Assembly: GCA_944321955.1 (NCBI GenBank)
Contig: CALUNG010000001.1
Location: forward strand, 62,001 to 126,000
DNA length: 64,000 nt
Reading direction: 5' to 3'
Source: an uncultured Alistipes sp.
GTDB lineage: Bacteria > Bacteroidota > Bacteroidia > Bacteroidales > Rikenellaceae
Positions 9,990 through 62,446 of the stretch are shown here, one piece after another. Positions within the stretch are counted from its first letter, which is position 1. Every line of letters begins with the position of its first letter. The notes beneath the pieces were generated by a model. It had not been told where the DNA came from and ran no database searches. It saw only the letters and a list, made by a program, of their open reading frames with translations. The translations under genes and the position numbers were made by a program.

Positions 9990-10019
9990 AAAGGGTGTCA
10001 GAAAAATCTGACACCCTTT
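9990..10019. terminator. Intrinsic terminator overlapping the end of the terminase gene
   Basis: A 12-bp perfect stem AAAGGGTGTCAG/CTGACACCCTTT with a 6-base loop AAAAAT. It terminates the flavoprotein gene from the left. On the minus strand it contains the last codons and stop of the terminase gene, so both convergent genes share it. Confidence 0.85.
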
Positions 10020-11455
10020 ATTCTCGGTGAATTGCGTCCCACGACCTCCTGTTCGGCGATGCCCGTCAGCACGTCCGGGGCATCGTGCCAGCGGTTCGAC
10101 CTGAACTTGCGCCGGTAAGTGACAAGATGCGAATGCAGTTCGGGCCACCGTTGTTTCCATCCGCGCGGGAAGCGTATGTTGTGGAGTACCGTAGCCGAGT
10201 TCGAGAGGATGCGGGCCTCCTTGTTGCCGCTCTGGTGGAACCAGCCTATGCGTACCGACGGCACGAGTTTCTGTACGGCCCGGGCGAAACCGCGTCCGCC
10301 GTTGTTGCTCTCGATCATGGCGGACCGGCTGCCGGCCCGTTCTATCATCTCGCCTACGAGAGTCTCGGTTACCTCCATGGCTTCGCGCGTATATACTACG
10401 TCGGTAATATAGATTACTCCGTCGGCATCCACCTCGTAACACATCGAGCAGAGATAGTCGTCGCCCGTGTCGGCCGTATCGGTGTAGTTCGATTTGCGAA
10501 CGATCTCCTGCGGCAGGGTGTCGTATTCGGCAAAGCCGTCGCCGTAAAGCAGCCCTTCGCGCGACGACGGGTGACCCTGATACATGCACTCGAAACGCAA
10601 TGGATCGAGCCTCCGCTTTTCGAGCAGCAGTTCGACGCTCTGCCGTTCGCTCCACAGGGCCTCTCCTATGATGCGTGGGTCGATACCGCATGGCGCTGTG
10701 GTCTTCAGCGCCTCGAAATTCAGGTAGACCCATTCGTCTCCTTCGAGCGAATCGAGGTCGCTCCATTCGCGCAACGTCACCACGGGCTCGCGTTTGGTAA
10801 GTTCGCCGATGAGGTCGTCTTCGTGCCAGCGGGTGAAGACTATCAGCTCGCTCGACGAGTTGTGCATGCGCGTGCGTACTACGGACGTGTACCACTCCCA
10901 GCAGTTCTCGCGCACGATGGGCGAGTTCGCCTCCATGGCATCCTTGTAGAGGTCGTCAAGTATGAAACAGTCCACGCGGTTGCCCGTGAGCGCACCTTCG
11001 CGCCCGACGGAGAGAACACCGCCCTGATGCCCGACGACCTCGAACTCATCGGCCGTACGTATGTACTCCGGCGGCTTTGACCCGCGCTTTATGGTGGTGT
11101 CGGGAAACATGGCACCGTACTCCACCGAGTCGATGATACGCTGTATGCGTCGGTTGAAACGCGAGGCGAGCGATGCCGAATACGAGGCTATGGCTATGTG
11201 CAGATCGGGATCGAGCCCGAGCATGTAGGCAGGAAGCAGGGTCGTGGCGCCGACGCTCTTGCCGTGCTGCGGCGGCATGGTGATCATCAGCTTGCGCACG
11301 TGTCCGACGGCGAACTTGTTGAGCAGCCTGTAATAGGTGCGGTGGAAGGGTTGCAGTTCGAGAAACGGATATGCCTCCGCGGCGAACTCCGCAAAAGGCA
11401 AATCCGACCCTGCGGCCGTACGGTCCGCAGGGATTTCGGGTTTGCGTTTTTTCAT
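9998..11455 (-). CDS. Phage-type terminase large subunit (ATPase plus nuclease), solitary
   Basis: A 485-residue TerL, the motor and nuclease that packages phage DNA. Walker A is PPQHGKS (61-67), Walker B FILDD (164-168), and the coupling-type motif VFTRWHEDD lies at 206-214. The RNase H-like nuclease domain follows, with YTDTADTGDDY (Asp 326), MIESNNGG (Glu 382) and HDAPDVLTG (Asp 458 and 461). Both active sites look intact and the length is normal. No portal, capsid, small terminase, integrase or lysis gene lies nearby. The only phage-like companions are the small gene at 11577-11861 and the divergent S24 repressor. It could be a prophage remnant or a domesticated cassette. Base composition resembles that of its neighbours. 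Confidence 0.9.
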   Translation of the reverse strand: MKKRKPEIPADRTAAGSDLPFAEFAAEAYPFLELQPFHRTYYRLLNKFAVGHVRKLMITMPPQHGKSVGATTLLPAYMLGLDPDLHIAIASYSASLASRFNRRIQRIIDSVEYGAMFPDTTIKRGSKPPEYIRTADEFEVVGHQGGVLSVGREGALTGNRVDCFILDDLYKDAMEANSPIVRENCWEWYTSVVRTRMHNSSSELIVFTRWHEDDLIGELTKREPVVTLREWSDLDSLEGDEWVYLNFEALKTTAPCGIDPRIIGEALWSERQSVELLLEKRRLDPLRFECMYQGHPSSREGLLYGDGFAEYDTLPQEIVRKSNYTDTADTGDDYLCSMCYEVDADGVIYITDVVYTREAMEVTETLVGEMIERAGSRSAMIESNNGGRGFARAVQKLVPSVRIGWFHQSGNKEARILSNSATVLHNIRFPRGWKQRWPELHSHLVTYRRKFRSNRWHDAPDVLTGIAEQEVVGRNSPRIKGVRFF

Positions 11456-11576
11456 GTTGTGTGATGTTTGAACTGTTTGCGGCCGTTTTCCGATGCGAAA
11501 GGCGGGTGCCGCGGTGTTGCGGACGGCGGCGGGAGCATCGTCCCGAGAAGTGAGGAGCCGTCGTCCTGCGAAGCGG

Positions 11577-11861
11577 TCAGCAGATGTACTCCTTGAGCAG
11601 TGCGAACGAAAAGTCGTTGAGCATTTCGCCTTCGTCCGAGGTGTGGAACTCCCACCAGACGGGAACCAGGTCGCTGATTGTGTCGTACGTGCCTTCGGGC
11701 ATGACGGTTTGCCGGCGATGGACGATCACGGAGACGGTCAGTCGGCACTCGACATCACCGAAACCGAATTCGATGCTGCCTGAAAAGTAGTTCTTCGTGC
11801 CGATGGCATCGCACAACCGGTCTGCTGTCTCTTCGTAAAGTTGTGGAGTTATTTCATACAT
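11577..11861 (-). CDS. Small protein of unknown function beside TerL
   Basis: A 94-residue protein starting MYEITPQLYEETADRLCDAI. Middle strands read GSIEFGFGDVECRLTVSVIVH and the end is LVPVWWEFHTSDEGEMLNDFSF. No named family is recognised; it looks like a compact alpha/beta fold. It lies 121 bases upstream of the terminase gene on the same strand and is divergent from the XRE/S24 repressor gene, so it is probably the first gene of a repressor-controlled transcript that includes terL. Its -7 element (TATCTTTG on the minus strand) sits at 11923-11930. The function may be phage-related, for example a small-terminase or accessory role, but nothing in the sequence proves that. Confidence 0.65.
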   Translation of the reverse strand: MYEITPQLYEETADRLCDAIGTKNYFSGSIEFGFGDVECRLTVSVIVHRRQTVMPEGTYDTISDLVPVWWEFHTSDEGEMLNDFSFALLKEYIC

Positions 11862-11886
11862 ATTCAGATATAAATTATTGAATGAT

Positions 11887-11917
11887 TTTGTAGTTTGAAA
11901 TAAATGCTTTAACTTTG
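11887..11917 (+). promoter_or_regulatory. Promoter of the XRE/S24 repressor gene
   Basis: TTTG (11887-11890), a 19-base spacer, then TAACTTTG (11910-11917): a full match to the Bacteroidota -33/-7 consensus, reading toward the repressor gene at 11998. Confidence 0.75.
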
Positions 11918-11922
11918 CACTA

Positions 11923-11930
11923 CAAAGATA
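11923..11930 (-). promoter_or_regulatory. -7 element of the leftward promoter (small gene and terL)
   Basis: CAAAGATA on the plus strand gives TATCTTTG on the minus strand. It faces and overlaps the rightward promoter: the two -7 boxes form an inverted repeat, so transcription in both directions from this point should be mutually exclusive. A -33 box for this one is not obvious. Confidence 0.5.
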
Positions 11931-11934
11931 GGTT

Positions 11935-11967
11935 CAATTTTTGAAAATTGTACTATTTTGTTCAAAA
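11935..11967. promoter_or_regulatory. Two palindromes, candidate repressor operators
   Basis: First site CAATTTTTGAAAATTG at 11935-11950, a perfect 7-bp inverted repeat with a 2-base centre. Second site TTTTGTTCAAAA at 11956-11967, a perfect 5-bp inverted repeat with a 2-base centre. Their centres are 19 bp apart, close to two helical turns. Both lie between the -7 boxes and the repressor ATG, as expected for autoregulatory operators. Binding is inferred, not shown. Confidence 0.55.
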
Positions 11968-11997
11968 ATTTAACATAGAAATAACTGATAGAACGCT

Positions 11998-12669
11998 ATG
12001 GAGAGTCGCGTAAAACTGATACGTAAGGCGCTGAGCATGACGCAGGAGCAACTGGCTCAGTATTTTGGAATAGGCAAGGCGGCGCTTTCGATGATCGAGA
12101 CCGGCAAGGCCGGACTCTCGTCGCGCAACAGGAACATTCTTGTTCAGGATTTGAACGTCAATCCCGAATGGCTCGACGGCGGCGAGGGTGAAATGTTCAA
12201 TGCCGAACCCGACCTGCAGGATTTCAGTCTGCGTACGGACCGTTCGCTGCCGATGCAGAGCGTGCCGCTCTATTCGATCGAGGGTACGGCGGGACTTGTG
12301 CCGCTGTTTGCCGATACGCGACAGTACAAGCCTGTGAACTTCATCCACATACCCAACCTTCCGAAGTGCGACGGGGCGATATATGTTGTCGGCGACTCGA
12401 TGTATCCGCTGCTCAAGAGTGGCGACATAGTACTCTACAAGCAGCTGCATGACATACGCGACATATTCTGGGGTGACATGTATCTGCTCTCGATCGACAT
12501 CGACGGTGAGGAGTACATCACGGTGAAGTATGTACAGAAGTCCGAACGCGAAGGGTATGTCAAGCTCGTGAGCCAGAACCCGCATCATGCCGACAAGGAT
12601 GTAGAGATGAGCCGGATACGTGCCATTGCTCTTGTCAAGGCGAGTATCCGCATGAACTCGATACGCTGA
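11998..12669 (+). CDS. XRE-family repressor with S24 (LexA/CI-type) autocleavage domain
   Basis: A 223-residue protein. Residues 1-60 are a helix-turn-helix of the XRE class (LIRKALSMTQEQLAQYFGIG, then KAALSMIETGKAGLS). From about 88 it is a peptidase S24 domain: a candidate cleavage bond Ala98-Gly99 in EGTAGLV, catalytic Ser134 in VGDSMYPLLKSGD and Lys177 in ITVKYV. All elements of a repressor that cleaves itself on RecA stimulation are present. It has a canonical promoter and two palindromes directly upstream, and is divergent from a small gene and terL, the arrangement of a phage lysogeny switch. A general stress or SOS-type regulator is the alternative. Confidence 0.9.
   Translation: MESRVKLIRKALSMTQEQLAQYFGIGKAALSMIETGKAGLSSRNRNILVQDLNVNPEWLDGGEGEMFNAEPDLQDFSLRTDRSLPMQSVPLYSIEGTAGLVPLFADTRQYKPVNFIHIPNLPKCDGAIYVVGDSMYPLLKSGDIVLYKQLHDIRDIFWGDMYLLSIDIDGEEYITVKYVQKSEREGYVKLVSQNPHHADKDVEMSRIRAIALVKASIRMNSIR

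Positions 12670-61345: not shown

Positions 61346-62446
<1,101 letters not shown>

Follow-up and report, generated by a model that had tools for sequence, protein, structure and literature searches.

A terminase and repressor cassette among host genes

Alistipes is a common gut genus. We analysed a 64,000-nucleotide stretch of DNA from an uncultured Alistipes sp. of the Rikenellaceae (positions 62,001 to 126,000 of contig CALUNG010000001.1, GenBank assembly GCA_944321955.1; hereafter the window), in which a first-pass annotation had marked three genes: terL, for the large subunit of a phage terminase (TerL), a gene for a 94-residue protein of no assigned family (O94), and a divergent gene for an S24 repressor. 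All three lie where they had been placed (Table 1). We consider it likely that the Rikenellaceae vertically inherit a domesticated phage that is split between two loci and resembles a gene transfer agent (GTA), the cassette being its packaging-and-switch locus and its head and lysis genes lying at a second locus.

Table 1 Genes and predicted regulatory elements of the cassette, numbered from the first nucleotide of the window
Feature	Coordinates	Strand	Remarks
terL, terminase large subunit, 485 aa	9998..11455	-	family matches in text
O94, acidic 94-aa protein	11577..11861	-	upstream of terL
XRE/S24 repressor, 223 aa, divergent	11998..12669	+	Ala98-Gly99, Ser134, Lys177
Repressor promoter: TTG, 19 bp, TAACTTTG (Bacteroidetes-type -33/-7 boxes)	11888..11917	+	read from sequence
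-7 box TATCTTTG of the O94-terL operon	11923..11930	-	back to back with that of the repressor
Palindrome TTCAATTTTTGAA, probable operator	11933..11945	.	adjoins the O94-terL -7 box
Second operator-like half site TTCAAAAATTTAA	11961..11973	.	less conserved

TerL matches the PHROG terminase large subunit family (E 1.5e-84) and exceeds the cut-offs of Pfam Terminase_6N and NCBIfam TIGR01630; the 2.06 Mb genome holds this single Terminase_6N match, and a search of solved structures with the TerL sequence led nowhere. The protein contains a motif that we take to be Walker A (PPQHGKS, residues 61-67), an Asp-Asp pair at residues 167-168, and the acids D326/D329/D333, E382 and D458/D461, which are presumably those of the nuclease. 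The repressor exceeds the Pfam cut-offs for Peptidase_S24 and HTH_3, and its helix-turn-helix (HTH) and S24 domains, Ala-Gly pair and Ser/Lys residues give it the make-up of a LexA/CI-type protein; as in LexA and CI, the Ala-Gly pair is presumably the cleavage site, and the Ser and Lys the catalytic dyad. Over its HTH it also matched four PADLOC models (HTH_VI, RmrA twice, and Control_protein; best E 7.7e-7).

The region between O94 and the repressor was compared across 35 sequences. Two back-to-back -7 boxes are kept in it, and the columns of the repressor -7 box are 89-100% identical; we assigned these promoters by the Bacteroidetes-type consensus (-33/-7; TAnnTTTG). The palindrome columns TTCAAnnnTTGAA are 71-97% conserved in the same set. 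By analogy with LexA and CI, the S24 protein probably binds the palindrome and would be cleaved after DNA damage.

Searches of Pfam, PHROG, NCBIfam and PADLOC assigned O94 to no family at the thresholds applied. The family has a median isoelectric point of 4.4, and the O94 model (predicted local distance difference test score (pLDDT) 96) consists of a helix, three long strands and a helix; neither PDB nor the viral models yielded a structural match at E ≤ 0.001. Relatives of O94 occur in two prophage-like loci (L243 and L247); at a third locus, L245, a relative lies close to genes for both terminase subunits, which are of a different family. Our guess is that O94 serves as a packaging or DNA-end accessory. 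A homologue is also encoded in an uncultured faecal phage contig, MT837081.1 (L239, 5126-5413, plus strand), flanked by genes that, on inspection by eye, we take to encode a YqaJ-type nuclease and RecT; searches of viral contigs and plasmids with O94 otherwise led nowhere.

To the left of the cassette, Pfam identifies a nitronate monooxygenase-family gene and a 2-oxoacid:ferredoxin oxidoreductase; to the right are two open reading frames without a family match, read as lipoproteins, followed by one read by eye as tsaD. All Pfam-matched flanking genes are host genes. For integrase or replication genes, the neighbours were inspected by eye and by clustering over spans of up to 20 kb, with Pfam applied to the flanks in the window only. 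The statement in the first-pass annotation that there are no other phage genes holds for the neighbourhood and fails for the genome, which has a portal and capsid cluster on another contig. Its claim that base composition is like that of the neighbours was borne out: the G+C content of the three cassette genes is 53.7-59.5%, compared with 57.7-58.4% for three neighbouring genes.

Conservation of the cassette in Alistipes and its family

TerL was found in 36 of 37 genomes of the same genus and, marginally, in one of 24 genomes from other families. At the 37 TerL loci that we fetched, tblastn detected the repressor in 34 and O94 in 33, and one more O94 (genome G003) was found by profile; the remaining three loci (L053, L055 and L059) resemble prophages, such that the only TerL of genome G009, the source of L055, is that of a prophage. 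Named genomes were also scanned, and the best 80 of 398 relatives were kept (Alistipes, Rikenellaceae or, for two, Bacteroidales); 77 of these loci have all three genes in the divergent layout, the other three being cut by contig ends. Isolates that carry the cassette include Alistipes sp. An66, A. montrealensis kh20 and Alistipes sp. Marseille-P5061. Of 17 further cassette loci, 16 of which come from other genera, 16 have the complete trio arranged in this way. At the genus level, O94 was detected in 166 of 180 species (66 of 70 when only the better genomes are counted); at the family level, 56 of 81 genomes have it, representing 14 of 22 genera. An order-wide draw of 295 genomes yielded four O94 matches, namely the window's own genome, two genomes of a sister genus, and a marginal, partial match. 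The repressor profile (E ≤ 1e-20) matches 18 of 247 genomes of the order; TerL and O94 were absent from all ten repressor loci fetched from other families. We conclude that the cassette is a core locus of Alistipes and its family, and not, as the first-pass annotation had allowed for, a peculiarity of this genome. At one locus (L246, genome G465), terL and O94 have no detectable repressor beside them.

The surroundings of the cassette are shared as well, since 18 of the 34 fetched Alistipes cassettes lie near the same flanking genes, korA or tsaD. The terL and tsaD genes are on opposite strands at 13 of 16 loci and on the same strand at three, which belong to the window's genome and to G026 and G002, the genomes most closely related to it. 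A single inversion therefore suffices, and given the split of 13 to three we rejected the idea that the cassette flips. No full prophage occupies the same site in the fetched relatives, yet terL adjoins phage head genes in two other genera of the family, g181 and g187.

The active sites, which the first-pass annotation had described as undecayed, are conserved in the aligned copies. The 17 TerL residues that we checked are invariant in an alignment of 36 rows, which includes three prophage copies and leaves out the copy from genome G008 and one truncated copy; the Ala-Gly pair, Ser and Lys of the repressor are invariant in all 34 aligned sequences. For the eight closest pairs, the ratio of non-synonymous to synonymous substitution rates (dN/dS) is 0.07-0.24 for TerL (prophage copies included), 0.04-0.14 for the repressor and 0.14-0.57 for O94, and the median ratio of non-synonymous to synonymous differences (pN/pS) over all pairs is 0.31, 0.20 and 0.59, respectively; all of these values are rough, because synonymous sites are near saturation. 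The data support the conclusion that TerL is under purifying selection, and the unconstrained evolution that the first-pass annotation had named as an argument against domestication is not seen.

A second locus with head and lysis genes

An HK97-type portal gene (PF04860, E ≤ 0.001) was found in 23 of 24 Alistipes genomes, including that of the window, where it lies on a different contig from the cassette (contig 24). None of 14 other-family genomes has a match, and the match exceeds the Pfam cut-off in 13 of the 38 genomes searched. Strong extra portal matches in genomes G007, G011, G014 and G023 share contigs with Pfam capsid matches and look like ordinary prophages. The Pfam HK97 capsid and the SPP1 portal were rejected as partners of the cassette, with matches in only five and one of the 38 genomes, respectively.

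We fetched 20 loci with the weaker portal match and found a conserved order of about 10 kb: p10, p7, p0, p12, a ClpP-type protease, the capsid, p8, the portal, a DUF6712 adaptor, a holin and an endolysin-like gene. This order holds as far as contigs and gene calls reach; six loci were rechecked by tblastn, and genes for which the gene caller had chosen the wrong strand in GC-rich loci (for example L263, L268 and L277) were recovered in the same way. Searches with PHROG and Pfam identified the portal (E 4.8e-18) and the head maturation protease (4e-38), the capsid gene matches a PHROG virion structural protein (4.8e-6), and holin and endolysin families were also matched. In the window's genome, the frames of the cluster are open across their profile matches. 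The capsid protein is predicted to have the HK97 fold: its model (mean pLDDT 71) has 329 matches to HK97-fold shells at E ≤ 0.001, and the best 50 of these 329 are capsids or encapsulins, including the native GTA particle 6tb9. The product of p0, about 785 aa long and without a family match, we read as a baseplate hub. With portal, protease, capsid, adaptor, holin and endolysin kept together at this second locus, the cassette is not the solitary one that it had been called, and we rejected a solitary domesticated terminase.

The cluster has a promoter of its own: in 20 of 25 leaders, TTGAC is followed by TAT[AC]TTTG, with a spacing of about 16-17 bp from TTGACAA. Operator-like sites scoring at least as high as the weakest cassette operator occur in five of the 25 leaders (L267, L273, L274, L291 and L294), compared with at most two leaders in 60 base shuffles; the repressor may therefore also touch the cluster in some species. 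The leaders (450 bases) also contain 23 copies of a DnaA-box-like motif, TTATC[ACG]ACA (for example in L263, upstream of 15449 on the minus strand), at a density of 2.0 per kb, compared with 0.09 per kb elsewhere in these loci and at most three copies in 300 base shuffles of the leaders.

The two loci tend to occur together. Among the 81 genomes of the family, 66 have the portal; both O94 and portal are present in 53, neither in 12, O94 only in three and the portal only in 13 (Fisher p 2e-5, kinship ignored). Ten of the portal-only genomes belong to g181 (seven) and g187 (three), and in all four loci fetched from these genera no more than about 1 kb separates terL from the head genes, with no O94. 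The order is terL, protease, capsid, portal, adaptor in three of these loci, whereas L298 has the protease behind the adaptor. In genera g26 and g182, O94 and the portal are 7-17 kb apart in seven of the 17 genomes having both, with host genes intervening in the near loci that we read. In genus g192, terL was not found within the 20-60 kb fetched around two portals.

These arrangements bear on the possibility of two unrelated domestications, in which terL would work alone in DNA processing or defence and the capsid cluster would be otherwise employed. The different contigs and promoters of the two loci in the window's genome argue for such a history, as does an Alistipes genome with the cassette and no portal match (G390, described below). 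It is opposed by the position of terL beside the head genes in g181 and g187, by the proximity of the loci in g26 and g182, by their joint absence from 12 family genomes, by a prophage lineage that holds relatives of both loci, and by the lack of any PADLOC match for TerL or O94; we regard it as very unlikely. The PADLOC result also led us to reject a defence island. Of the functions suggested by the first-pass annotation, an anti-phage device is accordingly unsupported, and gene transfer fits best.

Related prophages and a GTA-like model

A prophage on contig C31 of the Alistipes genome G006 (L053, L283) carries relatives of both loci in one run: TerL, p10 (weak, 15.6 bits), p7, a hub-like gene, a tape measure, p12, protease, capsid, p8, portal and adaptor. 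The gene order is that of the family cluster, and the run is the only one of its kind with TerL among the 37 same-genus and 24 other-family genomes searched for TerL. Identity to the family proteins is 51-59% for TerL, 46-53% for the portal and 41-50% for the capsid; neither the 32 kb preceding it nor the 20 kb following it matched the holin and endolysin profiles of the element. Unlike the element, the prophage has a tape measure and a small-terminase gene, the latter just before terL, in the place that O94 takes in the cassette. A phage contig (L323) has a protease, capsid, p8, portal (about 46% identical), adaptor and holin related to those of the cluster. In both the prophage and L323 the tape-measure gene sits between the hub-like gene and the protease, and it is missing at that place in the family cluster. 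A small terminase was not seen in the cassette position, and the rest of the genome was not searched for one. The losses of tape measure and small terminase fit a phage turned non-specific packager.

In a 62-row tree, all 43 TerL sequences of the family fall in one clade (96/99), separate from those of Bacteroides phage B40-8, of the prophages in G006 and G014, and of the IMG/VR phages that we sampled. Identity alone would not reveal this clade, since family TerL sequences diverge down to 46% identity, compared with the 51-59% of the G006 prophage. The B40-8 group provides the best TerL from an isolated phage (about 48% identity). We rejected B40-8 as a direct source, because TerL was the only profile of the element to match in its 24 kb; its portal and head PHROGs also differ.

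We weighed an ordinary prophage or prophage remnant against these data. Every recognised part of the element is of phage descent, and G006, G009 and G014 contain genuine prophages whose TerL is related. However, presence in nearly all species of the genus, a single TerL clade, purifying selection, and two loci set among host genes with host-like composition make this explanation hardly tenable. Genus-wide presence and the constant three-gene layout led us to reject a remnant, and we did not find the marks of a prophage, namely patchy occurrence and a complete gene set at a single site (attachment sites were not searched for).

The main rival is a PBSX-like element, whose particles would package host DNA without delivering it and would act as a lysis weapon or have another selected effect. 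PBSX itself packages DNA without injecting it, according to the available part of PMC12946183, and the absence of a tape measure from the cluster and from our searches, despite its presence in the related prophage and L323, argues in the same direction. Nevertheless, the whole genus retains p10, p7 and the hub-like p0, whose prophage homologues neighbour the tape measure, and an unlinked tail gene may have been missed. We read the products of p10, p7 and p0, which lack family matches, as probable tail proteins, and consider a PBSX-like element rather unlikely.

A domesticated phage comprising both cassette and cluster is well supported. The first-pass annotation had offered domestication tentatively; family-wide retention, the low dN/dS of TerL, invariant active sites and the shared korA or tsaD flanks all bear it out. 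That the two loci constitute a working GTA is a strong prediction from their sequences. As in GTAs, the structural genes (capsid, portal, protease and terminase) are of tailed-phage origin, and transmission is vertical, within one clade apart from phages. The genes are dispersed over two contigs in the window's genome, and joined in g181 and g187; where dispersed, the element cannot package itself as one unit. With about even confidence, we further propose that a functional GTA is ancestral to most Rikenellaceae and that an SOS-type, self-cleaving repressor gates its terminase. Capsids may be assembled in response to a different signal, with DNA damage setting the time at which chromosomal DNA is packaged, and the passage from phage to GTA would have involved the loss of the tape measure and of the small terminase, the latter replaced in place by O94.

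In the mechanism that we envisage, the repressor would sit on TTCAAnnnTTGAA and hold O94-terL, as well as itself, off. DNA damage would activate RecA, the repressor would cut itself at Ala-Gly, and TerL would appear and dock on the portal of procapsids supplied by the second locus. Without a phage small terminase, whose place would be taken by O94, TerL would package chromosomal DNA without choice of site, and holin and endolysin would free the particles.

Several observations weigh against a two-locus GTA. A single-protein search detected no homologue of the tape measure in 23 of 24 Alistipes genomes, and no tail tube was identified, which places the tail and delivery in doubt. The capsid protein evolves faster (median pN/pS 0.50, with 0.31 for the portal) than two housekeeping genes (0.18 and 0.19). 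In the window's genome, the cluster is under a promoter of its own, and its best operator-like site scores 9.7, short of the 12.8 of the weakest cassette operator. The exact palindrome occurs once in that genome and the reversed control pattern twice, so that uniqueness alone is a weak argument for the operator and no statistical proof. TerL and portal distances are correlated (r 0.63 for 20 Alistipes and 0.71 for 32 family genomes; 0 of 2000 permutations as high), but distances of TerL or portal correlate equally with those of tsaD and korA (r 0.68-0.90, n 9), and the correlation thus reflects vertical descent of both loci rather than linkage. In the other ten of the 17 g26 and g182 genomes, the loci are farther apart or on other contigs. 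G390, a 99% complete Alistipes genome, has an intact cassette (L325, 6071-8904) and no portal match, and most of the genomes are metagenome-assembled. The TerL of the G009 prophage falls inside the family clade. Finally, the TerL of G008 (L327, 1678-2949, minus strand) has about 84 residues (around 237-321, D326 among them) replaced by about 31 others.

Two of these genomes deserve separate mention. G008 keeps its structural cluster alongside the altered TerL, in which the first nuclease acid is replaced. The G009 prophage (contig C231; L055/L285) is perhaps a phage that took terL back.

RcGTA-like elements (Rhodogtaviriformidae) occur in Alphaproteobacteria, unlike the Alistipes element; in RcGTA, TerL lies inside the main cluster and control is by other regulators, with no S24 repressor known for its terminase. 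They share with the Alistipes element domesticated head and packaging genes of a tailed phage and a single TerL clade, as described in the available parts of PMC7947584 and PMC9662315. The Brachyspira GTA (BhGTA, formerly VSH-1), according to the accessible text of PMC9662315, has a single conserved terL outside its structural cluster and separate from phage TerLs. It thus resembles the Alistipes element in its detached, conserved terL and its gut host; it belongs to another phylum, and that text mentions no S24 repressor cassette for it. The role of the detached terL of BhGTA is itself described there as unproven. FpGTA of Faecalibacterium is likewise GTA-like and from a human-gut commensal, with capsid and lysis genes at two loci, whereas it is podovirus-like, belongs to Bacillota and has its TerL with portal and capsid, as far as the accessible text of PMC12946183 describes it. 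In the same sources, particles and transfer have been demonstrated for BhGTA, and particles and packaged DNA for FpGTA, whereas the Alistipes element is known from genes alone.

The literature searched, with most subscription papers and preprints outside its scope, contains no recognised GTA genes for Bacteroidota or Alistipes. As given in the available part of PMC12946183, a 2026 gut survey found GTA-like packaging mainly in Bacillota and lateral transduction for Bacteroidales; Alistipes does not occur in its main text. As far as these searches reach, the element may be the first GTA in Bacteroidota with its gene set identified. If our interpretation is correct, gut Alistipes may produce phage-like particles filled with the bacteria's own DNA, providing Bacteroidota with an inherited route for gene exchange after DNA damage. 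The apparently lone terminase would be explained as a detached packaging locus, as proposed for Brachyspira, and the prophage relative together with the joined (g181, g187), sometimes-near (g26, g182) and split (Alistipes) forms may record the stepwise domestication of a phage.

The structural cluster is also present on eight short IMG/VR contigs (L313-L320, 4.4-12.9 kb), with 64-75% portal identity, indicating that the element has been filed as a virus.

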